This document shows, piece by piece, positions 3,310 through 60,471 of a stretch of DNA of 64,000 nucleotides; within the stretch, counting starts at the first letter, position 1; each line of letters opens with the position of its first letter. The notes below the pieces were generated by a model. It was given only the letters and a program-made list of their open reading frames with translations. It did no database searches and had not been told where the DNA came from. Made by a program: the position numbers and the translations under genes. The stretch lies in NCBI RefSeq assembly GCF_020520425.1, contig NC_079489.1, positions 80,978,810-81,042,809 of the forward strand, given 5' to 3'. This stretch comes from Spinacia oleracea (Eukaryota > Streptophyta > Magnoliopsida > Caryophyllales > Amaranthaceae).

Positions 3310-5876
3310 TGTAACGCCCCGACTTCTAAACACCATTAATTAGGTTAATTATCTTTAATTAGCAGCGGAAACCTTAATTTAATCGGAGCGTTACTCCCGT
3401 ATCTCCCTCGTGGGAAATACAAGGCGACATAACCTTTTTACATTTACTGACTACTGTTGAGTAACAGTAATTATACTTTACTTCGATTAATTATTCAAAA
3501 TTTACATTGAAACCTAAGTAAACCTTAATAAATATTTCTAACATGTTTAAACATTAATTTAAAAATCTAACTCAAATCGTGAAATCATACTTAGAGTTTA
3601 ATTAATACATCCCTTTATTACTAATGACATAGTTATCTTTATTAAACATCGATCGTGAATTTGATGGTTGCATCCTCACTCTAAGGCATCCCATGATCTT
3701 CTTCGTACCTAAAACAAAAGCAACATCGTGAGCCGAGGCCCAGTAACATACTACCCTAACAGCGTAAACTCATTTCAATTCATTTTATTTACTTTGCAAT
3801 CAGGGAGAATAGAACATAGTAAAACACTTTCATAAATGCATTATAAAATAAACATCATTTATAACTTGAAACTTTGATAGTTCCCATTATCTTTCATAAA
3901 ACCTTCATTTTTACTTGGTAACTGACAAGTTAGCCTTGCGGGACGTCTCCCACCTTGCGATAGTCCTCAAGGAGCACTCTCCCTTGTTGGACATACGACC
4001 GTACCTAAATAGTTTCTCTTTTAGCTTGCGGTAACCCTCAAGGAGCACTCTCCCTTGTTGGGTGTCCCGCGGTACGGCGGTACGTGCACGACCTAGAATT
4101 AGTAACCCCACTAACTGCCAGAACCGATTACACTTTTATTTATCATGTTTCGTATCTTATTCGTAACTCATCAACATCATTCTTATAAAATCATACATAA
4201 ACATGTTTGAATATCATCATGCATAAAACACACTTTATAAACACAATTCATATCCCACAATCCATTAAAACATATCATTATAAACATATTTCATAAATTC
4301 ATAAAACACAGTTCATAAGGGGATTGTGGGTGTTAGCAATAGATGTTACCTCAACCGTAGTTAATATTCCCTGTTCGATGGACCGTTCTTCCTGAGCTCC
4401 GAGTTCGATTTCTTTCAGAATATTAAACCATCCAATTAGTTATTAACGATTAATATTAATACTTTATAGTAAGTTTATAAATAATTATAAATAACGAATT
4501 GTAATAATAAAAATTATAATTTCATAGTTTTATCGTTAATATTATTATTAATCAAAATTTCAATTAAAAACTAAATTTTTATTATATAAATCGATTTACA
4601 TGAAACATATTTATTTTTGTTAATACTAGCTAGTAACTTAATTTTAGTAAAATCGGTAATTTAAATATGTTTTCCTACCTGAAAAATAATGAGTAATTTA
4701 TTAGTAATTTATTATATAAACATATATTGAAACATTTTATCAAATTTATTTAGATAAAAAAAACATGAAGGATAAGTTTATAAATCTGAAAATAGTAATG
4801 GAGAATGAGCTTACCAAAACCCATTAGAATTTGGGCCCATCCCTTTTTATTTTGGGTTAAAGGGAACAATTCACAAGTCAGGAAATTGGTTTCCTGACTT
4901 TGTGAATGTCGAGCAGAGGGGAGGGGCAAGCAACAGGCACGAAAGAGAGGAAGGGAAGAGAAGGTGGCGGCTGAAGCCTGGGCGGTACGGCGGCGCTAAA
5001 GCGCTCCGGCGATGGTGGTTGAGGGCAGTGCGACGGTGAGAGAAAGGAAGGGGGAGCACGAGCAGGGCGGGACAGGGGAGAGAAACAGGGGAGGGGTGTT
5101 TCCCGGTCGATTTTGGGCGGCGTAGCAGCAGCTCGCCGGGTCTTGTGAGGCGGAGGTGGTTATAGAAGGTGGTGCGGCAGCGACGAAAAAAAAGAGGGAG
5201 GCAGAGGTGTGCGAAACAGAGAGGAAACAGGGGAATTGGTGGTGGTGACTTGGGGCGGTTCTGGGCGGTCGACGCGGTGGCTGGTGGTTCGTGGGTTGGT
5301 GATTGGTGACGGACGTAGTGGTGGTTGAAGGTGGTGGATAGTGGTTCGAACAGGAAGGGAGCAAGGGAACAAAATTTCAGATTTTGTTAATTTGATTTTT
5401 GCATTGAAATAATTCTGAAATTGGTTCAATTTGTAATTAGGTGGATTTCTAGAAGAATAAAAGTTCTTGGGCTCCAAGGAAGTGAATGTAGACTGAAATA
5501 AGGGAAGAGAAGAAGGAAAGAATGGCTTCCTTCTTCCATGTACGTGGAAAGCAAGGGAGGAAGAAGCTAATTGCAAATTTTGTCCTTTAGGGGCATTTTA
5601 GTAAATTCAAGTAGTTAGGCCAAATTTCTGAATTTTAATTGCTATTTTAGGAAATTACTAAAAATAGAAAAGTTTTAATTAAAACAAAGTCTCGTAAAAT
5701 GTATCGTTAACGAAAAATAAATACATTTTCGTTTATAAATTTATCGTTTAAAATAAATCGTAGAAACGTTTAAAATAACGAAATTTTTAAATTATTTCTA
5801 ATAATTAAAACGAAATTACGTTAATAAAATATTATTAATTTTAATAAATCGAGTTTAAAAATTTCGGGGTATTACA
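3310..5876 (-). mobile_element. 5' LTR of gene-less LTR retrotransposon (2.57 kb)
   Basis: Begins TGTAACGCCCCG and ends CGGGGTATTACA on the plus strand, so the ends form the short TGT/ACA inverted repeat. Positions 4940-5876 match 1-938 almost base for base. At 2567 bp this LTR is longer than the whole internal region. To its right, 5877 onward is 3'-UTR sequence of a Retand-like element, so the insertion interrupts that older element. The target duplication cannot be checked because the left flank is outside the window. Confidence 0.88.
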
Positions 5877-6424
5877 TCATCAAAGTAGCATACCACCACA
5901 AAGATCGCTCGCACATACGAGCACGATCCCAAACATGATTAAGGACGTTATAAAATACGTACTTCTCTTGGCAAGAAATGACCGTCAAGCACGAGTGCTT
6001 GGGGGCTCGAAAGAAAATATACTTCAACAGAGAGTATGCGAAGTTAAAACCATATTCCCGGACTACGCTCTACGCAGTCCCGTGTTTGGATAATCTCAAA
6101 AGATAAAACCGGATTACGACAAAGGTCGCCGTTGATACTTATACACGGTCCTCTGATCAAAGACCCAAGTAGTGGCAAAATCGAGCCGTAAAAACTAGCT
6201 CAAAACCATGAAAGAGGATGACCACAAGACAATGGTCTGTCTAAGCACGTTGTCAACCCACATTCAGGTTACAACTAAATCCGAGCATCACTCGAAAGAA
6301 TTCGCTCCTACAAGAATGAATAGAAAGAAATTCTCAAAAGAAATCACAATGAACAAAAGAAATAGGGACTTGCCCACCTCAATCGGGCAAGATCGCGCCA
6401 CGAACCACGCGAGTTCCAAATCGA

Positions 6425-6850
6425 AAAAACGAATTCAGGGGCGTCCACCCTCAGCGGACAGGGCTCGCCCACCTTCAGTGGGCGGGGTCTGCGTCACTAG
6501 CCGCGCAAGTCCTCAGTTTTCGAAAAATAGAATCTTCAAAACAAAATAAAATAGGCTCGCCATCTTCAGCCGGCGGGGTCTACGTCACAAACCGCGTAGG
6601 CCCTTATTTTCAAAACATTAAAAACAGATTCGTCCACTTCTATCGGACGGGGTGTCCACCCTTAGCGGACAGGCTCGCCATCTTCAGCCGGCAGGGTCTA
6701 CGTCACAAACCGCGTAGGTCCTTATTTTCAAAATATCAAAACAGATTCGTCCACTTCTATCGGACGGGGTGTCCACCCTCAGCGGACAGTCTCGCCATCT
6801 TCAGTCGGCGGGGTCTGCGCCACTAACCGCGCAGTTCCTTAGTCGCCGCA
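6425..6850 (+). repeat. 3'-UTR minisatellite of element A, about 118-bp unit
   Basis: The unit contains TCGCCATCTTCAGCCGGC, GTCTACGTCACAAACCGCGTAGG, TTATTTTCAAAA and the paired boxes CGTCCACTTCTATCGGACGGGG and TGTCCACCCTCAGCGGACAGG. Copies start near 6554, 6671 and 6790, with a degenerate leader from 6440. Each box is a short hairpin (for example GTCCACC...GGCGGAC-like arms). The same array lies at 58817-59215. Confidence 0.85.
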
Positions 6851-6854
6851 GCGA

Positions 6855-6995
6855 TAACTTTTTCTGGTTTTCCCTTTTTCCAAAAATTAAAGGATTGGTT
6901 TCCCCTTTTTCCAAAAAATAAAGGATTGGTTTTCCCTTTCCCCAAAAATTAAAGGATTGGTTTTTCGTTTTTCCAAAAAAGACCGATGTGCTGGA
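6855..6995 (+). repeat. Second 3'-UTR minisatellite, about 32-bp unit
   Basis: Four to five tandem copies of a unit around GGTTTTCCCTTTTTCC and AAAAATTAAAGGATT. The matching array in element B is at 59233-59375. Confidence 0.85.
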
Positions 6996-7420
6996 TTTTC
7001 CTTCGTTTTACGTCCTATAAAAACAAGGGGGTTTTCTCGTTTAGCTAACCCTGAAAATGAGAATCTTCAAAAACATTTTACCTCGTGATTGGGCTTGGCC
7101 AGGCCCAGTTACACTTTATAGCTTTGATTTCAAAAACATCTTTAGATACTTCCAATGACAAAGTGAGGGAGTTTCTATACATCTTTAGATACTTCCAATG
7201 ACAAAGAGACGGAGTTTCTATACTATCAGTTGACAAATTCCAATGACACTTGAGGGATATGTTAACACTTCAAGTGATGACCCTTAAGTCAAGTGTTATC
7301 ACTCGGGGGCTCGTGAGACCCTCGCAAAATAGGTCACATACACCATGGCTTGTATGATGCACTTCGTCTAGTACTTTGACCATCGTCTCATCTCGAGACT
7401 CAGTCAAAGTGGGGGCTAAC

Positions 7421-8894
7421 TGTAGACACCTACTTTTTTCCCCATTCCCGAAAGGGAAGGTTCGATGATGAGAACATAAATCTCCACTTGGCAACGCATC
7501 TCCTATAAAATAACGAATCTCGATCACCCTTTTCATTTCAGCCGAACCTGCTATTTATAGAAACCTGCTAAAAATAGTAACTTCCATAATGGGTAGTTGT
7601 TAAAAGTGGAAAGTCATAAAAGATAGAAACCTGTCAGAATTAGGTGTTGCACTCCAACATAAATCCTAAAAGAGATAGAATTTACAAAGGAATTATATTC
7701 CTGGTATAATTCGAAATAAAGAGTTACGTATTAATTAAAATCCTAACGAACCTAGAGTTCGTAACGGGCCCAGACGCATTCCGTCATAAAGTTAATACGC
7801 ACTAAAAGACTCGGATAAGTCTCAAAGGCTCCGAATTCTACGAGTCCAAATCTGACAAGGAAACACGGCCCATACCCTATTTTCAACGCCTGGCTCTGGG
7901 CGCCGAAATCTTCGGCGCCCAGCCCTGGGCGCTGAAAATACCTGGGGACGTGTTGTCTCCGAATTCTTCTTGGATTCGTCTTCTAAAAATCTATCTTTCC
8001 ACAAACTCTTCCCTATAAATACAGCCCCATAATCGACGTGAAAACACACAATTCATAATCTGAGTATTGACTCCAACCCTAAGCCTAAGCCTCACGCTGC
8101 GAAATTGATCCCGCGTTCTGTCGCAATCGACCCAAAAGTCGAACATAACGTATCCTGCCCTTTGTAGCTGAAGAATTAAGCCCGGATACTGGAACCTTGC
8201 TTGGAAACTCGAGATTCGTTAAATAAAAGGAGAAATAGCAAAGCCAAAGTGGTTAGTTTTTTGAGAACCACAACACACCTCTCAAAGGTGCGTTGTAATG
8301 TGTCCCTTCGCATGATTTAATCGCTTTCATCACCCTTTTATAAAACTGTTAACTATTAATCTGATTGTTCTATCACGCCTAATAAAGATAATATCTTGGA
8401 CAATTGAACTATCATGCTAGGTACCTTAAATCAATCTAAACAAGATAATCACGATCGATTTAGTATTATGTGTTGCATATTGCTAAAATCAATTCAGAGT
8501 AGTTTAATAGTTAACGCATGTCCCTTCAATTATTTATGCTGAGCTAGTAAGGATAACCTGCCTTTGGAGTTATCGAAGAGCACTCCTCTCGGTAGTTACA
8601 GTCCCCCGAACTCTCAATCTCTGCCCTGCGGGTGTACGTTGAGCGATCCCCACACCAGGGATCACAAGGGAACCTATGGCCGTCGTGGTCAAACATAATT
8701 GCACTCCCTTTATGCCACGATAACCGGGTTTTGTCAGTTTTTCTCATTGTCGTTAAAAACTGAATGGCGACTCCTATATTACTAGTCAATTGGGTGTAAA
8801 CTCACAGAAAATCCAATTACACTTGATCTGACAACGTCACGCCCACGAGGGACGAGGTCACGCATTAGCCTCGTGCTTTTTCGACCCCCTCACA
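7421..8894 (+). mobile_element. 3' LTR of Retand/Tat-like element A
   Basis: Starts TGTAGACACCTACTTTT and ends CGACCCCCTCACA. It is preceded by the purine tract CAAAGTGGGGGCTAAC. It aligns over its length with the 5' LTR of element B (50289-51752) but differs at many sites, so it comes from a different insertion. TATAAATA at 8014-8021 is the likely promoter. It contains one copy of the GC-rich double-hairpin module (7881-7938). The sequence after 8894 is not a primer-binding site, so this is the element's outer end. Confidence 0.88.
7881..7938. repeat. GC-rich double-hairpin module, copy 1 (LTR of element A)
   Basis: Pattern TTTCAACGCC - GGGCGCCGAAAT - TTCGGCGCCC - GGGCGCTGAAA. Two adjacent inverted pairs lie inside an outer TTTCA/TGAAA pair. 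Copies 2-7 are in element B. Confidence 0.85.
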
Positions 8895-50288: not shown

Positions 50289-51752
50289 TGTAGACACCTA
50301 CTTTTGTCCCCGTTCCCGCAAGGGAAAGGTTCGATGATGAAAGCATAAAAACTCCACTTGACAACGCATCTCCTATAAAATAAACGAATCTCGATTCCCC
50401 ATTTCATTTCACCCGAAACCTGCTATTTATGGAAACCTGCTAAAAATAGTAATTGCCGTAAAAGGTAGCTTCTAAAAGTGGCAAATCATAAAAAATAGAA
50501 ACCTGTCAGAATTAGGTGTTGCACTCCAACGTAAATCCTAAATGAGATAGAAAACCGCGAGAATCCTATTCCTAATAGGATTCGGAAATAAGAGTTACGT
50601 ATTAATTAAAATCCTAACGAGCCTAGAGTTCGTAACGGGCCCAGACGCATTCCGTCATAAAAGTGATACGCGCTAAAAGACTCGAATTAATCTCAAACTC
50701 TACGGATTTTAGGAATCCGAATCTGACTAAACAAAACTGCCCAGATCCTATTTTCAACGCCTGGCTCTGGGTGCCGAAATCTTCGGCGCCCAGGCCTGGG
50801 CGCTGAAAGTACCTGGGTACGTGTTTTTTCCTAACTCTTTGCGGATTAGAACTCTGCAATTCTATCTTTCCACGAACTCTTCCCTATAAATAGGCCCCTA
50901 GTTTCGACGTGAAAGAACACACAACAACACATAATATATTCTGAGTATTGACTCTAAACCCCTTAGCCTAAGCCTCTCACTGCGAAAATGTTCACGCGTT
51001 CTGTCGCAATCGATACATAAATCGAACAGAATGTATCCTGTCCCATAATTGAGATTCGTTAAATAAAAAGGAGAAATAGCAAAGTCAAAGTGGTTAGTTT
51101 TCTGAGAACCGTGACGCACCTCTCAAGGGTGCGACGTAATGTGTCCCTTTTCGATGATTTAACTGCTTTCCTCGCCCTTTTTATGAACTGTTAAACTAAC
51201 CTAATATGATTGTTCTATCACGCCTAACAAATATAATATTTTTGGGAAATCGGATTATCATGCTAGGTCCCTTAATGTTATTTAAATCAGATAATCACGA
51301 TCGAATTAGTATTATATGTTGCATATTGCTAAAATCAACTCAGATTAGTTTAATAGTTAACGCATGTCCCTTCAATTATTTATGCTGAGCTAGTAAGGAT
51401 ATCCTGCCTCTGGAGTTATCGACGAGCGAATTACTCCTCTCGGTAGTTACAGTCCCCCGAACCCTCAATCTCTACCTTGCGGGTGTATATTGAGAGATCC
51501 CCACACTAGGGATCACAAGGGAACCTACGGCCGTCGTGGTCAAACATAATTGCACTCCCTTTATGTCACGATAACCGGGTTTTGTCAGTTTTTCTCATTG
51601 TTGTTAAAAACTGAATGGCGACTCCTATATTACTAGTCAATTGGGTGTATACTCACAGGAAATCCAATTACACTTGATTGAATAAAAAGAATCGTCACAC
51701 CCACGAGGGACAAGGTCACGCATTAGCCTCGCGCTTTTTCGACCCCCTCACA
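50289..51752 (+). mobile_element. 5' LTR of element B (1464 bp)
   Basis: Starts TGTAGACACCTACTTTTG and ends CGACCCCCTCACA. TATAAATA at 50885-50892 is the likely promoter TATA box. It contains hairpin module copy 2. Its left neighbour GTGCC is copia coding sequence. Confidence 0.92.
50752..50808. repeat. GC-rich double-hairpin module, copy 2 (5' LTR of element B)
   Basis: TTTTCAACGCCTGG - GGGTGCCGAAAT - TTCGGCGCCCAGG - GGGCGCTGAAA. One base breaks the first inner arm (GGTGCC for GGCGCC). Confidence 0.85.
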
Positions 51753-51753
51753 G

Positions 51754-51771
51754 TGGCGACTCCACTGGGGA
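51754..51771 (+). other. Primer-binding site of element B
   Basis: TGGCGACTCCACTGGGGA, one base after the LTR. This is the PBS class reported for Tat/Ogre elements, usually assigned to tRNA-Arg; the assignment is from memory of the family, not a tRNA search. Confidence 0.75.
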
Positions 51772-52981
51772 TAGTGAAGGAAATACTCGTGCTTGTAGGT
51801 AATCAAAATAGCCGAAGGGTGAAACGATCCTACCCCGCGTTTATTTCCCCATCAAGTTGGGACGACCTGAAAATCAGCATATTAATGTGAACGGGCAGAA
51901 CATCATAACGAATCTCGGCTCCCTCGGGAGTTGGGACTAAGGATACCTTTTTTCGCCAATAGGGGGGTGCATACGCCGCGCATGTTTCCCACTCGGTACT
52001 TGTGCAGGTAGTACACCTATCCCGAACCCAATCGCTCGCCCATTAGGTCCCTCTCGCCTGCATGCCCCCTTGGCTTGCACTTGCGGGTTGGCCTCTTGAG
52101 CGAAATTCGTCTGTTGAAGACACTACCTCGACCGGGGCATGTGTTGGATCTACGATAGAAGCGTTACCAAGCCAGGCGCAAAAACTACCCATAGAAGCCT
52201 ATCATAAACTACGTGGCATGTTTAATTTTCAAATCCATGTTTGTAATGTAGTTATGTGTAGCGAAATATGTGATTGTGTGTGACAAACTATCCTAAAAAA
52301 CCAACGACCTTAAAAAATTTCCCAAACATTCATAGACTAATTTGCCAAAGAGTTATACCGAAACACGTGTTCCGCAAACCCGAATGATCGCCACAAAATA
52401 AGTGACGCTCGGGATGGCCTGTAACGAATCCCTCAAACGCTGTTACGCGTAAAGGATGTTATTAGGCAAGCACGTAAATCGAAGTCGCATAAACAGAAAA
52501 CAGAAAACGAGAACCAGCCAGGGACGCATTTTCAACGCCCCTGGCTGGGCGCCAAAATTTCTCACGCCCACTGCTGGGCGCTGAAGTTGCTGCTTGGCTT
52601 TCTGGTCAGGTGCAGCAGCCTCGGTGCCCAAGCAAAAAGAAAGTATGTAGCACAAAAAATGTTCATCAAAAGAATTGCTACGAGGGCGTAAGAAAAGCAC
52701 TCGATTTCAAAAGGCGACTCGCGAAAAATTAATAACTCTTTGTGTCGTCGTTAGGCCTCCTACGACGGCAATGCTCGGCACCAAAACCGAACATGCTAAC
52801 AACTATGAATATCACACAGGCAAGTGTTTCGAAAATCCAAAGAATGACCAAAATAAAAAAAAAACCCCCAAAAAGTGTACCGACAGGAGAAAGAGCGAAA
52901 AAAAAAAACAACAATTTAGAGAGTCGAAGTCTAGACTAAGTAATGCTTGAAACTTTGGGAACCTAAACTTTAGCTTATCTT
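51772..52981 (+). other. Long 5' UTR of element B
   Basis: 1.2 kb between PBS and gag with no convincing coding frame. It carries hairpin module copy 3 (52529-52586). A-rich tracts lie near 52850-52910. Long leaders are typical of Tat/Ogre elements. Confidence 0.7.
52529..52586. repeat. GC-rich double-hairpin module, copy 3 (5' UTR)
   Basis: TTTTCAACGCCCCTGG - GGGCGCCAAAATT - CTCACGCCCACTG - GGGCGCTGAAG. Confidence 0.85.
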
Positions 52982-54791
52982 ATGCCTAGGAATGGTCCTG
53001 CCACTTGGTGCCGATCAGGGAATCAACGGCTAGTGCGTCTCGAAGATACATCACCAACATCAGGTTTAGTAACTCCAAGCTCCGTCCGTCGTCCCTCATT
53101 TCAAGGATCTCCGCTTCCCCAACCTCGATTCGCACCTCCAAATATGTCCATCGAAGATTTGCGAGACCAGATGGTCCAAATGACCCAACTCATGGGCCAA
53201 CTGAAAATTGAAAACGAAGCCTTAGCGGCTGCGCAAGCCAAAAATGACCTTGAAAACGAGAAGAGGATTGAAAAAATGGTCCTACAGCAAACCATGGGGA
53301 GAAAATACTTCTCCCTCGAGCCTGAACCTTTTTCTGGAAAATTACCAGAAAAGTCCAGTTCATCTGACTTACCAAAGTTCAAGGCCACGGACAACCCCCG
53401 TGATCATCTACTGAGCTTTGTGAATACCATGAACTTGAAAGGCGTGGACAAGTCCATGTACCTACCTGCCTTTCCTTTGTCCTTGGAACCTGTGCCGCTC
53501 AAATGGTACTATCACCAGGACCCTAAGCTCTTCCCCACTTGGGAAGACTTTGTCAATGTCTTCATCAAGCAATACTCGTCGAACATGGATTTCCAAGTCA
53601 CCATGCGCGAGCTGGAAGTTCTCTTCCAAAAGAAAAATGAGGGTTTCACAACCTACTTTGCTAGATGGAGGGACTAGGCGGCCCAGCTAATCAATAGGCC
53701 TCCCGAAACAGAATTGGTCCAAAAATTCATTGACAACTTGGACCCGGCTTACAGACAACACCTTAGGTACCTGGGACTCGACACTTTCAAAAGGGTTTAT
53801 GATGTGGGAATAAAAATCGAGGACGACCTCGCCAAAACCATACAGAGCAAATCTGCATATAAGACCAACACCTATAATCGGGGTAACACATCCCAAGCCC
53901 AAGAAGTCCATGCTGTAGAAGAGGCTCCCGCCCGAAGATACCCTGTAAGATGGGTCCGAGACCGAAAGTTTGCCCCACTCGGGTCAACTTTGGTACAAGC
54001 CTTTGAAAGACTAACCAATCAAGGAAAGTTGAGACCTATAGGCCCCACCCGTGACCCTCCTGTCAAAAACAAATATTGGGTCGAAGGTACTTACTGCAAA
54101 TTCCATCAAGGAAATGGGCATGACACTGAAAACTGCTGGAATCTAAAACATACGATCCAGGACATGATAGAGGATGAAGTAATACCTCTCCCTAACGTTG
54201 GCAAACCCAACAACAACAAGAGCCCACTCGGCTCTTGTCACATCTCTCTCGACCAACAGAGAATTTCGACCCCACGGTGTATATTACACCTCAAGGTGCA
54301 CCACTCGCTGTGGTACCTATGGATCGAATCGAGGGGGAAGTGTGCGGTGTGTGGAACGATGATGCTGAAGATATTTACCTATCTCAAGTCTCGGGCCAGG
54401 ACCTCTTCACTGAAACTTGGCCCGGGTATGCTCTCATTGACACCACCCCTCAGGGGCCCGAGGTCGACAACCTCACCCGATCCGGAAGGATATATCAACC
54501 GGATATTCACCCCACCTCACCAAGACTAAAACAGCTGAAATATTGGACAACCAGGCTCTGTGGACATTGTTTAACGAATCGAGGCCTATGGAGGACGAGA
54601 CTGTGATGACTACCCTAGCTTTACAGGATGAAGGTTTCGATCCAACCCGGTTAATCTCTCCTGCATCAACACTAGAAGAGGTCGATAACGGATGGGTGAA
54701 GACATATCAGTGGGTCAACGCAAAAGGACTGGAATTCAAGATGAGTACCAGTGAAGGACCGAAGTTTTATGAGACTAAACCCCAGGCTTGA
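52982..54791 (+). pseudogene. Tat/Ogre-type gag, interrupted
   Basis: ATG at 52982. The frame has a Gln/Glu-rich stretch (about 53150-53290), then the Ty3/gypsy gag core PLKWYYHQDPKLFPTWEDF and MRELEVLFQKKNEGFTTYF. A single TAG at 53675 interrupts it, and the same frame resumes with AAQLINRPPETELVQKFIDN. A zinc knuckle CKFHQGNGHDTENC (CX2HX4HX4C) follows at about 54091. The frame then shifts near 54230 and again near 54540. The tail contains NLTRSGRIYQPDI, a segment that links gag and protease in Tat elements. The reading ends at 54791 with no protease. One stop and two shifts make this copy non-functional. Confidence 0.88.
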
Positions 54792-56087
54792 GCCACATAG
54801 AGCACCATTAGTAAAAAGCGCCTAGTAGTTCTTTAGATTGACAAAAAAATAATAGAGACTTTAGATGGTCCTAAGGCCCTTTAGAATATGGGTCAGTTTT
54901 ATTTTCAGTGTGTTTTCCTTACTTTCCGAATCAATAAAGGCGTAATATTTTTCCTAAAAATTTTATTCTAACACTAAATAAACACCAAATGTACTTGCAA
55001 AATAAAAAAAGCGGCCCACTATAGGCCCAACAAACAAAGCCCACTCGGTTTTGAAATAATGCCATGTGAACCAGTTCCCGAAACCCACAAAATAAACCAC
55101 ACTATCCCATCCTCAAAACCTAAAAAGCCAACCAATGTCATCATAAGAGCCAATCCATGCAACCCAAAATCAAAAGGAAATCAAAAATTTAAAACAAATG
55201 CAAATGTTACCAAAAAAAAATAAATTCATAAAACATAGATTCCATCATACCCTTCACTACCAACCTACCTCCAAAGCCTACACAAAGATCTTCATAATTT
55301 CCGCACCCTAACTCCATTTTCAAAACTGTTTTGAGTCACCAATAGAAATATTTAATCTGGACAAAAATGCGTTTCACGCTAACAGTCAAAAAAGCCTCCA
55401 AAACAGCCTCAAAATTAACTTTAACTACAAAGCAAAATATCAAGGCACAAAAAACGAAATAGAAATAAACGCAAGAACATGTGAAGCAAAACGTCAAAAA
55501 TTGACCGCCCAAGTCATTTTCAGCGCCCAGGGCTGGGCGCCGAAATTTCTGACGCCCCAGGCTGGGCGTTGAAACTCTCTGCCTGCCAAAGGTTCTCTTT
55601 TTCGGAAGTGCTCATCATTTTATCCGCATACAACGGAAAAACAACGAACACTTGGGGGGTACAGTACGTATCCAAATAGGTTTACCAACAAATTGGTCGA
55701 ATTTTACGCAACCTATAAAAAAAACGGCAGATGAAAATAAATGGCAAATACTTCACTCATTTGACCGATTAAGTAATATGTTTCCACTTCAGGACATATC
55801 TACCGAAATCCGGCATACTAGAACTTATTCTAAAGCTAGAACTATGCGCGACCTGATTCTGACAAGATACGTAGGCAATCCTTACCAAGGATTCGGTCCA
55901 AATAAAAAAATATATTCTTTGTGTAAAAAAGTGTTGGACATATAAAAGAGGAGAAACAAAATTAAATGAAAACTAAAATACGCCTTTATTAAAATATAAT
56001 AAGAAGGAAAACAAAGTGCTAGGAATAAAAAAAAAACAAACACAACTGAAATAAATAAAGGGCACCTACACCCTAGCAAGAACTACA
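54792..56087. other. Spacer between gag and antisense ORF, pol absent
   Basis: In an autonomous Tat element several kilobases of pol would follow. Here there are 1.3 kb of A-rich sequence without protease, RT, RNase H or integrase motifs. It contains hairpin module copy 4 (55517-55575). A 97-codon plus frame at 55652 has no recognisable domain. Confidence 0.75.
55517..55575. repeat. GC-rich double-hairpin module, copy 4 (gag/antisense-ORF spacer)
   Basis: TTTTCAGCGCCCAGG - GGGCGCCGAAATT - GACGCCCCAGG - GGGCGTTGAAA. Confidence 0.88.
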
Positions 56088-57897
56088 CTACTCTAGTTCT
56101 TCCGGATCATCGAATAAAGTCTTGTAGAGGGCAATGTTCGCAGGATCCACCCCCATAGTCTTCTGCGCTGCCCCAATATCAATCTCCATAAGAACCGGCT
56201 CCTGGACACTAACTTCCAAAGATGTCAAGGCTTCAGAAACATTCTCAATTATAGCCCGCTCAGCCTCGAAGGCACAGGCAATGGTGGGAGAAGGGTTATT
56301 ATCATCAACTGGGCTAGCCACTGTTTCTACAGGCGGCTGAGCCTTCCTAACCCATACATTGTTCCGGCGACGATCTCCGCGAGAGCTTGCATTTCTTTTA
56401 ACAACAGCAGGCCCCTTCATGTTAGGCATCTTTTTAGGCCTGACACTGGAACGGGGAGGAACTTCCTTTCGCTTTCGATCAGGACGAGCTTTCACAGTCT
56501 TAAAACTATAGGTACGAGGTCTGGCAGAATCAGGACCCTCATACTTAACACGAATACGAGGTATCAAAAGCTCAGCCGGCTCCCCATTTCGAGCCTCGGT
56601 CCTCACATCCTTGTCATCGGAACTCATCCACAACTTATAGTTTGCAGAAAGACCCACAAAGCCATTTGTAGCTACGGTCCAACGCGGGAGACCATCATAA
56701 TACCTAGCCCACGCTAAGACCCGTGTTTGTGAAAAGGCCGCTACCTTAGGTGGTACCGTATCAGAAAAGGGGATAGTCTGCCTTAAACCATATTGACGCA
56801 TGACTCGGTAAGGGAAAATATAAATGGGACAAGATAGCCCCAACAAAGAAACATAAACCGATACATCAGACCCCCCTGTCATAGTAGTCAAACCCCACCA
56901 TGGTACCACCCACTTAATAGAAAAAATGCCATAAGTAAAAAAGGAGGTCCATTCGGCCTCGTCCTGGCCTTGGTGCAAGTATTTTTGGTTACCCAAAGCT
57001 ATAGGGCGATAATGTTTAGGATCGGCAGGAGCTTCCAAAAGTCTAAGCCGTTCCGCAAGCCAAATCTGCAAAAACGGGTACGATCGAATCAAAAGAATGA
57101 AAAGAAAGAAAAAGAGGGTTCCTGGGGCGCAGTTTCAACGCCCAGGACCAGGCGCCGAATATTCCAGCGCCCAGCCCTGGGCGCTGAAACTCAGCCCCAG
57201 GCAAAAAGAAATATATAAAAGTGGCGTATGTGTGCGCAAAGAAAAAATAGATTACCTGCAGTAATAGGGGGCTTCCCTTAAAAATTTTGGATTTGGCATC
57301 CTTCTTCAGCTCATCCGCACTCAGCAAAGTCTCAGCAACAACCAACGGCATAATAGAATAGCAACTTTCCATCTGGGTAATCAAGGGGATCAGCCTTATG
57401 TCACCGAACTCACCATTATTATTCGACAGCAAATAATGATTCAACAAGCAAAATACAAGGGCTCGAATGTTCAATTTTTGTTCGGTCATATTCTTACTAG
57501 GCCTAAAATGATGTTTTACGAGTTTTGCCAAGTTAACCTTATCGTCTACAACAAGTTCAGCAAACATGTTATCATCTAGCCCTAGGAAAGCCCTTATGGT
57601 TGTTTTACCCTCTTCAATAGTGCCAGGGGTAACAGGAGTAACATTAGTAGGATAACCAAGGATCGCAGCAAATTCATCAGGCAAATGACATATTTCATTA
57701 CCCCGAAAGGAAAAAACATGATGATCGGAGTCCCAAAAGTTTAGGGCAGCATGCAGAAAATTATAATCAATATTAATTTGTTGTAAGCCTAAAAGTGCCT
57801 CTAAGTGGTATTCTTTTAACAAAGCTTTTTCTGTGGGAGTAAGAGCTCGTAGCCAACGCCTAACAGTCCGTTGGAGTGAGAAAGTAGGGGTCGACAT
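56088..57897 (-). CDS. Antisense ORF of element B, plant-mobile-domain/DUF7745-like, one predicted intron
   Basis: Minus-strand ATG at 57897 (MSTPTFSLQRTVRRWLRALT). Exon 1 is 57256-57897 (214 codons), then GTAATC...TTTTTGCAG defines a 190-bp intron (57066-57255). Exon 2 is 56088-57065 (325 codons and stop). Joined in phase 0 this gives 539 aa without a stop. The N-terminal part has FLHAALNFWDSDHHVFSFRG and EICHLPDEFAAILGYPTN, resembling plant-mobile-domain or DUF7745-type proteins often found in plant retroelements. The C-terminal part is basic (about 56390-56540) and may be nuclear. No catalytic residues are recognised. It is the most intact gene of the element, while gag is broken. It could act in regulating or mobilising the element; that is speculation. 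Confidence 0.7.
57132..57190. repeat. GC-rich double-hairpin module, copy 5 (inside antisense-ORF intron)
   Basis: GTTTCAACGCCCAGG - AGGCGCCGAATATT - CAGCGCCCAGCC - GGGCGCTGAAAC. It lies wholly within the predicted intron 57066-57255. Confidence 0.88.
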
Positions 57898-58480
57898 GGC
57901 AAAAGCAGTAAATAATTAGAGCACAGCAAAAAGAGAGAAAGAATTTGAGAGTGGTGGAAAATAAGGACGTATCTAGCCCCTATATATAGCTGAACGCACC
58001 CAATAACATCCTGATCCCATTCGGAAACGTGTTTAGAAATCCGAAAATCAAATATTACCAGGAAAGAACTTTCAGCGCCCACCTCTGGGCGCCGAATTTT
58101 TTTAACGCCTGAGCTTGGGCGCTGAAAATGCAGCCCAAGGCCCAGATTTCACAAAACACGGAATAGGAAAGGACTTAAGACCGTGTTGCTAAAACACGAG
58201 GCCCTATTACAAGTAAGATCAAGCCCAAAGCACCTTTAGCTCCCAAATAAGCAAAAAATAATAACATTAAAACTTGGTCGAAACTTAGACTCGTCTCAGA
58301 AACGCTCATGTACACTTTTCAAAAAAAAAAAGCAAGTTAAATATCATGGTCATTCTTCGAAACACCAAAAAAAATATGTGTCGTCAAGTCATTGGTTTTC
58401 CAAATAGGAAATGTCTGTCTGTCAAAGGGTTAATCCGGGCCAAGCTAAAACCGGATGTCGCCTGAAAACTAAAGTCGCAC
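57898..58480. promoter_or_regulatory. Upstream region of the antisense ORF
   Basis: On the minus strand this is upstream of the ORF start. CTATATATAGGGGC (complement at about 57976-57989) is a TATA box about 80-90 bases before the ATG, suggesting an own promoter. Hairpin module copy 6 lies just upstream of it (58069-58129). Confidence 0.6.
58069..58129. repeat. GC-rich double-hairpin module, copy 6 (upstream of antisense ORF)
   Basis: CTTTCAGCGCCCACC - GGGCGCCGAATTT - TTAACGCCTGAGC - GGGCGCTGAAAA. Confidence 0.85.
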
Positions 58481-58816
58481 TCCACGGCTTCACTAAAATA
58501 GCACACTACTATAGGCGGTCGCTCGCACATACGAGCGTGACCCCAAACATGATTACAAGACGCGAAAAACAACCAACGAGCCCCAACACTTGGGGGCTCG
58601 CAAAAAGTGGACTCCAACAAGGAGCGCGCAATCAAAATCACATTCCCAGACTGCGCCACGCACCATATCATGTTTGGACATCTCAAAAAATATATTGTTA
58701 AATATACACAGTGTGGACCCACTTATAGGACACATCTAATAAGGAAATATTACGACCCACCAACAGGTTGTAATCACCAAAAGCTCTTCTACATAGGCAA
58801 AATAAGAAATTCAAAA

Positions 58817-59215
58817 TGGGCTCGCCCACCCTCAGCGGGCGGGGTCTGCGTCACTAGCCGCGCAGGTCCTCAGTTTTCGAAAAATAAAGTCTTCAAATTT
58901 AAAATAGGCTCGCCATCTTCAGCCGGGGGGGTCTACGGTGCAAACCACGTAGGTCCTTATTTTCAAAAAAAAAACAAAAAAAAATTTCAAAACAGATTCG
59001 TCCACTTCTATCGGACGGGGCGTCCACCCTCAGTGGACAGGTTCGCCATCTTCATCTGGCGGGGTCTACGTCACAAACCGCGTAGGTCCTTATTTTCAAA
59101 AACATCAAAACAGATTCGTCCACTTCTATCGGACGGGGGGTCCACCCTCAATGGACAGGCTCGCCCACCTTCAGCGGGCGGGGTCTGCGTCACTAACAGC
59201 GCAGGTCCTTAGTCG
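58817..59215 (+). repeat. 3'-UTR minisatellite of element B, about 120-bp unit
   Basis: Three to four units built as in 6425-6850: TCGCCATCTTCAGCCGG, GGGGTCTACG-CACAAACC-CGTAGGTCC and TCGTCCACTTCTATCGGACG. Units begin near 58911, 59041 and 59160, preceded by a variant at 58820. Confidence 0.87.
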
Positions 59216-59232
59216 CTGCAGCGATAACTTTT

Positions 59233-59375
59233 ATCGGTTTTCCCTTTTTCCGAAAATTAAAGGATCGGTTTTCCCTTTTACCGAAAATTAAAGGATTGGT
59301 TTTCCCTTTTTCCAAAAATTAAAGGATTGGTTTTCCCTTTTTCCAAAAATTAAAGGATTGGTTTTTCGTTTTTCC
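59233..59375 (+). repeat. 3'-UTR minisatellite of element B, about 32-bp unit
   Basis: Five tandem copies around GGTTTTCCCTTTTTCC and AAAATTAAAGGATT. Matches 6855-6995. Confidence 0.87.
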
Positions 59376-59807
59376 AAAAAAGAACGATGTGTTGGATTTT
59401 CCTTCATTTTACGTCCTATAAAAACAAGGGGGTTTTCTCGTTTAGCTAGCCCTGAAAATGAGAATCTTTAAAAACGTTTTACCTCGTGATTGGGCTTGGC
59501 CAGGCCCAATTACACTTTACAGCTTTAATTTCGAAAACATCTGTAGTTACTCCCAATGACAAAGTGAGGGAGTTTCTACGCACCTTTAGATCCTTCCAAT
59601 GACAAAGTGAGGAAGTTTCTATACTATCAGTTGACAAATCCCAATGACACGTGAGGGATATGTGGACACTTCAAGTGATGACCCTTAAGTCAAATGTTAT
59701 CACTCGGGGGCTCGTGAGGCCCTCGCAAAACAGGTCACATACACCATGGCTTGTGTGACGCACTCCGTCTAATACTTTGACCATCGTCTTACTCCAAGAC
59801 TCAGTCA

Positions 59808-59821
59808 AAGTGGGGGCTAAC
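59808..59821 (+). other. Polypurine tract of element B
   Basis: AAAGTGGGGGCTAAC immediately before TGTAGACACC of the 3' LTR. The same sequence precedes the LTR of element A. Confidence 0.8.
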
Positions 59822-60471
59822 TGTAGACACCTACTTTTGTCCCCGTTCCCGCAAGGGAAAGGTTCGATGATGAAAGCATAAAAACTCCACTTGACAACGC
59901 ATCTCCTATAAAATAAACGAATCTTGATTCCCCATTTCATTTCACCCGAAACCTGCTATTTATGGAAACCTGCTAAAAATAGTAATTGCCGTAAAAGGTA
60001 GCTTCTAAAAGTGGCAAATCATAAAAGATAGAAACTTGTCAGAATTAGGTGTTGCACTCCAACGTAAATCCTAAATGAGATAGAAAACCGCGAGAATCCT
60101 ATTCCTAATAGGATCCGGAAATAAGAGTTACGTATTAATTAAAATCCTAACGAGCCTAGAGTTCGTAACGGGCCCAGACGCATTCCGTCATAAAAGTGAT
60201 ACGCGCTAAAAGACTCGAATTAATCTCAAACTCTACGGATTTTAGGAATCCGAATCTGACTAAACAAAACTGCCCAGATCCTATTTTCAACGCCTGGCTC
60301 TGGGCGCTGAAAGTACCTGGGTACGTCTATTTTCCTAATTCTTTGTGGATTAGAACTCTGCAATTCTGTCTTTCCACGAACTCTTCCCTATAAATAGACC
60401 CCTAGTTTCGACGTGAAACAACATACAACAACACATAATATATTCTGAGTATTGACTCTAAACCCCTTAGC
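59822..60471 (+). mobile_element. 3' LTR of element B, truncated
   Basis: Matches 50289-50968 of the 5' LTR with few substitutions, then stops inside the sequence CCCCTTAGCC and continues directly as copia sequence. About 780 bp of LTR are missing. It keeps TATAAATA at 60389-60396. Its hairpin module (about 60283-60312) is reduced to one arm pair by a 29-bp deletion relative to the 5' LTR. Confidence 0.9.

Follow-up and report, generated by a model that had tools for sequence, protein, structure and literature searches.

We analyzed a window of 64,000 nucleotides from Spinacia oleracea (contig NC_079489.1, positions 80,978,810 to 81,042,809) and found that the long terminal repeat (LTR) retrotransposon lying between position 50289 and about 60469, in opposite orientation within a copia element, is probably a worn copy of a high-copy, non-autonomous, pol-less spinach family of the Tat clade (Ogre-like), which carries a gag-protease gene and a convergent antisense gene for a protein with a plant mobile domain (PMD). 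The family has the form LTR, primer-binding site (PBS), gag-protease open reading frame (ORF), convergent antisense PMD gene, tandem repeats, polypurine tract (PPT) and LTR, and the PMD gene has a TATA box, an intron and a poly(A) signal of its own. Both genes have been kept alike by purifying selection in the source lineages, with near-neutral decay after insertion, and the antisense gene is not favored over gag-protease.

A preliminary description of the sequence had called for a search for further copies, and the genome searched (G000, 894 Mb) yielded them: antisense exon 1 as query gave 150 scored matches at 96-100% (of 6,288 first-look candidates), and gag gave 150 at 96-100% (of 8,125).

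The antisense PMD gene and selection on both genes

The antisense ORF of the window element comprises 539 codons in two exons, with one GT-AG intron of 190 bp and no lesion, exactly as first described. When spliced, its protein passes the Pfam cut-offs for PMD (PF10536, 43 bits against a cut-off of 34.9, E = 4.2e-11) and DUF7745 (PF24924, 30.1 bits against 26, E = 3.5e-7), which are its only Pfam matches at E <= 1, and each exon alone scores below both cut-offs. TRP28 (PF04195) was not found in this protein. Its best protein relatives are Spinacia oleracea models, among them the NCBI model P0001, also of 539 aa, which matches at 89% and without a gap over the splice junction. From about residue 410 onward the protein has a basic stretch that would fit nuclear import. 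Across 30 copies, the window included, the ATG is kept in 28, the donor GT in all 30 and the acceptor AG in 28 of the 29 covered, while the TATA box (CTATATATAG) is conserved in 28 and AATAAA is present in all 25 copies that cover it. Shared insertion-deletion (indel) sites, counted without the window and two tandem copies, amount to 36.8 per kb in the intron, 23.3 upstream and 42.9 downstream of the gene, compared to 2.0 in exon 2 and 0 in exon 1; the intron varies like non-coding DNA, and exon 2 does not. The gag set, from which the window and L061 (a copy with an intact gag frame) were dropped, has 30.7 such sites per kb in the 5' untranslated region and 0 in gag-protease. Judged by these sequence features, the antisense gene looks real.

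Alternatively, the 190-bp stretch could stay in the transcript as an exitron-like insert that keeps the frame, or the antisense ORF could work only as RNA (double-stranded or small interfering RNA). All of the 80 scored copies found with P0001, apart from three with fused exons, are open through the 190-bp stretch in frames of 598-654 aa, and frames of at least 580 aa occur in 11 of the 150 exon-1 matches as well as in L061. However, P0001 is a full-length query, which in our view favors continuous frames, and we judge the exitron reading to be a selection effect: with the exon-1 query, 139 of 150 frames fall short of 580 aa. In addition, only one of the seven shared intron indels has a length divisible by three, and the ratio of nonsynonymous to synonymous change (dN/dS, omega) of shared variants is below 1 in the coding frame but not in the other two forward frames, which argues for a protein. 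We consider this alternative unlikely.

The three fused matches (L072-L074), which are continuous over 539 codons, were also considered as intronless copies that would prove splicing, but they keep the splice donor and represent imprecise deletions. L072 and L073 (G000:C2, 10,368 bp apart) are tandem copies, 99.98% identical; owing to a deletion, exon 1 in both reads through a remaining part of the intron into exon 2 as a single open frame. L074 has the same kind of fusion with a different junction. AlphaFold2 on six sequences gave an unusable fold (pLDDT 30.8), and a PDB sequence search with P0001 gave no match. Alignment of the antisense proteins to the legume gene model P0066 with hhalign gave an E of 0.006 but a probability of 6%, and was not counted. 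Five antisense genes of the element family (P0001, P0002, P0004, P0005 and P0006) are recorded as ordinary spinach proteins, either DUF7745 or aminotransferase-like PMD, and such records are likely an artefact of transposable element (TE) annotation.

To compare selection on the two genes, we distinguished variants private to one copy, which are mostly post-insertion, from shared ones, which mostly arose in source elements. The copies had been picked with exon 1 and with the first 690 bp of gag, and these parts were hence excluded from inference. The antisense exon 2 set comprised 26 copies (the tandem duplicates L023 and L024 were left out, as were L018 and L025, which are without most of exon 2), and the gag-protease set comprised 28 (L061 was left out because it is identical with copy L034, and L044 and the window's L031 were without coverage). 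We found that omega in antisense exon 2 was 1.03 for private and 0.39 for shared variants (p = 7e-4 between the classes; p = 7e-5 for 0.39 against neutrality), so that comparison between copies gave a value near 1 for private variants only. In gag-protease, private omega was 0.84 and shared omega 0.35 (p = 1e-3), and the shared values of the two genes did not differ (Fisher p = 1.0). Before exclusions, the private and shared values were 1.07 and 0.40 for the antisense gene and 0.87 and 0.34 for gag-protease. As a frame control, shared omega was 0.96-2.01 in the other two forward frames.

The preliminary description had held that the antisense gene was in better shape than gag and was the part preserved by selection or recent copying, which would make gag dispensable. 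The window copy does combine a clean antisense frame with three gag lesions, and lesions across copies are fewer in antisense exon 2 (15 in 25.4 kb, 0.59 per kb) than in gag-protease (43 in 42.0 kb, 1.02 per kb). However, the difference in rate is not significant (p = 0.077), the window copy alone gives a one-sided p of 0.15 with one of its three lesions being the junction of a large deletion, and a frame of exactly 993 codons, the full gag-protease length, is open in 20 of the 150 scored gag matches, window included. Purifying selection on the antisense gene in source elements is borne out, but with shared omega equal in both genes, gag-protease was equally kept, and we regard a special preservation of the antisense gene as quite improbable.

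The gag-protease gene and the absence of pol

The 993-aa protein of L061 carries a Retrotrans_gag domain (Pfam), and its residues 126-969 align at 33% identity with a 1,023-aa Ogre-type ORF of Tasmannia (P0020). This alignment takes in the stretch between gag and reverse transcriptase (RT) where protease lies, and further Ogre-type ORFs of 1,020-1,049 aa align similarly. On the basis of these alignments, the family is gag-protease and not, as had been proposed, gag-only. Of the stop and two frameshifts first reported in the window gag, the in-frame TAG (53675-53677) and one frame change (near 54250) stand, while the second shift is a deletion junction (54508-54518), and the protease part of the window copy was lost through this deletion of about 1.16 kb.

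From 69 of the 150 gag places and 64 of the 150 antisense places, picked by eye as likely neighbors, we obtained 44 gag/antisense pairs. The distance from the gag start to antisense exon 1 is 5,343-5,471 bp in 34 of them, 4,268 bp in the window copy and 6.8-16 kb in the remaining nine. Since the gag-protease (gag-PROT) frame takes 3 kb, a spacing of 5.34-5.47 kb leaves no room for pol. The wide pairs were candidates for pol-bearing copies, but the three of nine that were read in part (L063, L064 and L071) have a foreign insert between continuous flanks and no pol match; the insert in L063 is copia. Of six 1-kb probes from the 15-16-kb spacing class, four hit either the insert of L063 or the window copia, and two hit nothing. 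It is very improbable that the window element is a single autonomous Ogre copy whose pol was deleted: its internal deletion does give the sole such short spacing among the 44 pairs, but it took protease rather than RT, RNase H (RH) and integrase (INT), 34 pairs likewise have no space for pol, and the gag-PROT frame of L061 terminates with no pol behind it within the 6.4 kb examined.

The absence of pol from the window, as first noted, was upheld by profile and protein searches. Six Fagus Tat polyproteins, three of which were domain-scanned and each found to hold gag, RT, aRH and integrase, matched only gag in the window by tblastn; four of five other Ogre-type proteins matched only gag there and the fifth matched nothing, and ten ORFs from the gaps of the element contained no pol domain. 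When the Fagus polyproteins were run against 82 loci, nothing beyond protease was found at E 1e-5, except in L077-L079, which were retrieved as RNase H loci. A search for the RVT_3 family retrieved six loci, four of them weakly similar (23-31%) to Ogre-type proteins, and four pattern matches in viral contigs included no relative of the element.

Autonomous Ogre-type frames, recognized by sequence similarity, are present in spinach. RH-aRH frames of Ogre type (149 scored of 10,364 candidates) are 53-57% identical to the Tasmannia query, and the scored frames include three open frames of 1,309 codons. At one place (L082), a stretch 1.9 kb upstream of the RH-aRH hit, in the reading frame shared with the 1,309-codon pol frame, matches residues 913-986 of the 993-aa ORF (45%, E = 2e-18). 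The L082 frame continues to the end of the 601-bp piece, while the pol-less family stops seven residues after the matched stretch. Together, these comparisons suggest that the family's gag-protease ORF stops where the autonomous Ogre frame continues towards RT, and that the autonomous element examined is no close parent of the pol-less family. At L081 (G000:C3:108130000-108130700), a pol frame of Ogre type with 1,309 codons is followed downstream by an antisense open frame, which is interrupted at a similar place by a GT..AG gap of 81 nt. By eye this frame looked like a candidate PMD, but Pfam and hhalign gave no significant match.

Several points weigh against reading the window element as a copy of a pol-less family with two maintained genes. 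No autonomous partner with the same LTR was found: the similarity of the examined pol-bearing element in the gag-PROT tail is only 45%, and none of 79 P0001-like antisense genes compared lies on the opposite strand within 20 kb of the pol places compared (119 entries, one of them twice, of 149). The protease segment was not recognized by the Pfam scan, and its identity rests on the alignment with Ogre-type ORFs and a motif that we take to be that of protease. Antisense transcription and splicing are predicted from sequence. As for selection, copies were chosen by similarity to the window copy, so that intact ones are over-represented; one reverse frame in each gene also has a shared omega below 1 (0.48 and 0.54), probably an effect of its silent positions falling on third codon positions; and exon 2 is not less diverse in nucleotides (0.0195) than the intron (0.0184), the constraint being visible only in shared variants and indels.

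Anatomy and insertion site of the window element

The LTRs, PBS, 3' minisatellites (31-bp and 87-bp tandem arrays) and PPT of the preliminary description were all recovered (Table 1), with the LTR borders revised. The direct-repeat pair stands, but the 5' LTR ends with CA at 51752, as set by the complete LTR (7420-8894, likewise ending CTCACA) of a second family copy, and the 3' LTR is cut at about 60469. This second copy (5875-8894) is 5'-truncated and 84% similar, and closes with that complete 1.47-kb LTR. The PBS-like site is identical in 21 of the 29 gag loci that align there (30 loci including the window).

Table 1. Features of the retrotransposon in window coordinates
Feature	Position	Strand	Remarks
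5' LTR, TG...CA	50289..51752	+	full length 1,464 bp; pairs with 59822-60469
PBS-like TGGCGACTCCACTGGGGA	51754..51771	+	immediately 3' of LTR end
gag remnant of gag-PROT ORF	52985..54791	+	homologous intact frame L061:149-3130 (993 aa)
Internal deletion junction, 11-bp overlap	54508..54518	+	1,157 bp absent relative to L061
AATAAA	55985..55990	-	97 bp downstream of antisense stop
Antisense exon 2	56088..57065	-	remaining PMD domain, basic (nuclear localization signal-like) stretch, stop
Intron, 190 bp GT-AG	57066..57255	-	contains the element's dispersed palindromic module
Antisense exon 1	57256..57897	-	ATG at 57897; start of PMD/DUF7745 domain
TATA-like TATATATAG	57980..57988	-	91 bp upstream of antisense ATG
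3' tandem repeats, 87-bp and 31-bp units	58807..59380	+	
PPT-like AAAGTGGGGGC	59807..59817	+	precedes 3' LTR
Truncated 3' LTR	59822..60469	+	paired with 5' LTR
Palindromic module sites	50752-50808, 52530-52586, 55518-55574, 57133-57189, 58070-58127; also 7881-7947		

The two LTRs differ by 12 substitutions at 648 compared sites (Kimura two-parameter distance 0.0188) and by one 29-bp unit, which presumably corresponds to 0.72 or 1.34 million years under two commonly used rates. The empty site ATCTTTGCGCCTTTTCAGG is seen in an uninterrupted relative of the host copia (in L063), and the junctions of the window element have just GCC in common because the 3' LTR is cut off. The reciprocal nesting occurs at L063 (G000:C3:143964800-143974799), where the host-type copia family sits inside antisense exon 2 of an element-family copy. 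Judged by eye, two near-identical stretches of about 1 kb, one at the start of the window and one at about 4.8-5.87 kb, resemble the LTR pair of another element cutting into the second family copy. A GC-rich palindromic module (GCGCCCAG..CTGGGCGC), often paired about 29 bp apart, occupies the LTR, the 5' untranslated region, the region behind gag, the antisense intron and the region before the antisense gene. With 0.02 matches expected by chance, the window has 10, and each of them lies within one of the two copies of the element family.

Relation to known elements and a proposed cycle

Sequence comparison places the element nearest the Ogre branch of Tat in gag-protease, not Retand as had been proposed. 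The L061 ORF is homologous over most of its length to that of Tasmannia and over shorter stretches to those of Camellia, Rhododendron and Vicia, and the window gag matches Ogre-type proteins; we take these relatives to be Ogre from their aRH, G-patch, DUF7745 and Vicia hosts. The family also shares with Ogre a PMD/DUF7745 accessory ORF but is without RT-RH-INT, and unlike two legume gene models (P0058 and P0066), in which DUF7745 lies upstream of gag in one protein, its accessory ORF is 3' and antisense. PMD occurs in 57% of Ogre elements (PMC6317226), and Ogre makes up about 10-18% of the tabulated Spinacia samples (PMC7840529). Among the Gypsy lineages of spinach, Ogre/Tat has the highest abundance (PMC6337768).

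With Retand (Vicient 2025, PMC11963269) the element shares an antisense ORF near the 3' end, between gag/pol and the 3' LTR, together with tandem repeats, a large 3' internal region and non-autonomous members. On the other hand, TRP28, which is present in 97% of Retand clusters, is missing from its antisense ORF, its LTR of 1,464 bp exceeds the 315-1,194 bp given for Retand, and the word 'intron' is absent from the text of that paper, whereas the antisense gene in the window has one. TR-GAG elements are LTR elements with Gag only that are presumed to be trans-mobilized, with transposition seen in Arabidopsis ddm1 (PMC8704663); the spinach family is no such single-ORF element, since it also keeps protease and a second, antisense gene. 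Grande gene23, reported to have its own promoter and a nuclear protein, and Retand ORF4 are likewise antisense accessory genes (PMC7264820), but ORF4 carries TRP28, and the available text of that source does not contain the word 'intron'. The PMD-C proteins MAIN and MAIL1 of the host silence TEs (PMC5418596, PMC7156037), and PMD-A clades are encoded exclusively by Gypsy retrotransposons (PMC5418596). The antisense protein shares the plant mobile domain with MAIN and MAIL1, but the reported silencing role is that of host PMD-C, and a regulatory or anti-silencing role of TE-borne PMD is our guess by analogy. Antisense ORFs, 3' repeats and non-autonomous Retand (PMC11963269), PMD ORFs in Ogre (PMC6317226) and pol-less Gag elements (TR-GAG) were thus already known. 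In a limited search of open-licence papers, covering titles and abstract openings, we found no earlier report of an intron within an antisense accessory ORF of a plant LTR retrotransposon. Extra ORFs were reportedly treated by Steinbauerova et al. in 2011.

We propose that an LTR-driven sense genomic RNA would make Gag-protease and would be copied in trans by RT and integrase from autonomous Ogre elements, as presumed for TR-GAG. Antisense transcription and splicing of the PMD gene would yield an anti-silencing protein or a nuclear regulator. In genomic RNA the antisense intron would offer no splice sites of its own and would outlast each cycle, its survival through retrotransposition being due to the antisense orientation, which prevents splicing. 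In the window copy, protease has been deleted, gag has acquired a stop and a frameshift, and the far end of the 3' LTR is missing. More tentatively, one could imagine a two-component Ogre system in spinach, a possibility to which we give limited credence: the pol-less high-copy partner would give Gag-protease and the intron-bearing PMD protein in trans, autonomous elements would give RT and integrase, and the antisense orientation would be a device for keeping an intron-containing anti-silencing gene through RNA cycles.

Antisense accessory genes are widespread in Tat, and the one described here is complete in its parts, having a TATA box, a conserved intron and a poly(A) signal, and shows frame-specific purifying selection across copies. 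Since it persists in a family without RT and integrase, we suggest that the gene may serve the element itself and not ride along with pol. Its protein has the domain of host transposon-silencing proteins, and an anti-silencing role is therefore directly testable. Altogether, these findings suggest a way in which an intron can be carried by a retroelement. They also suggest that TE genes of this type are entered as spinach proteins in reference annotations.

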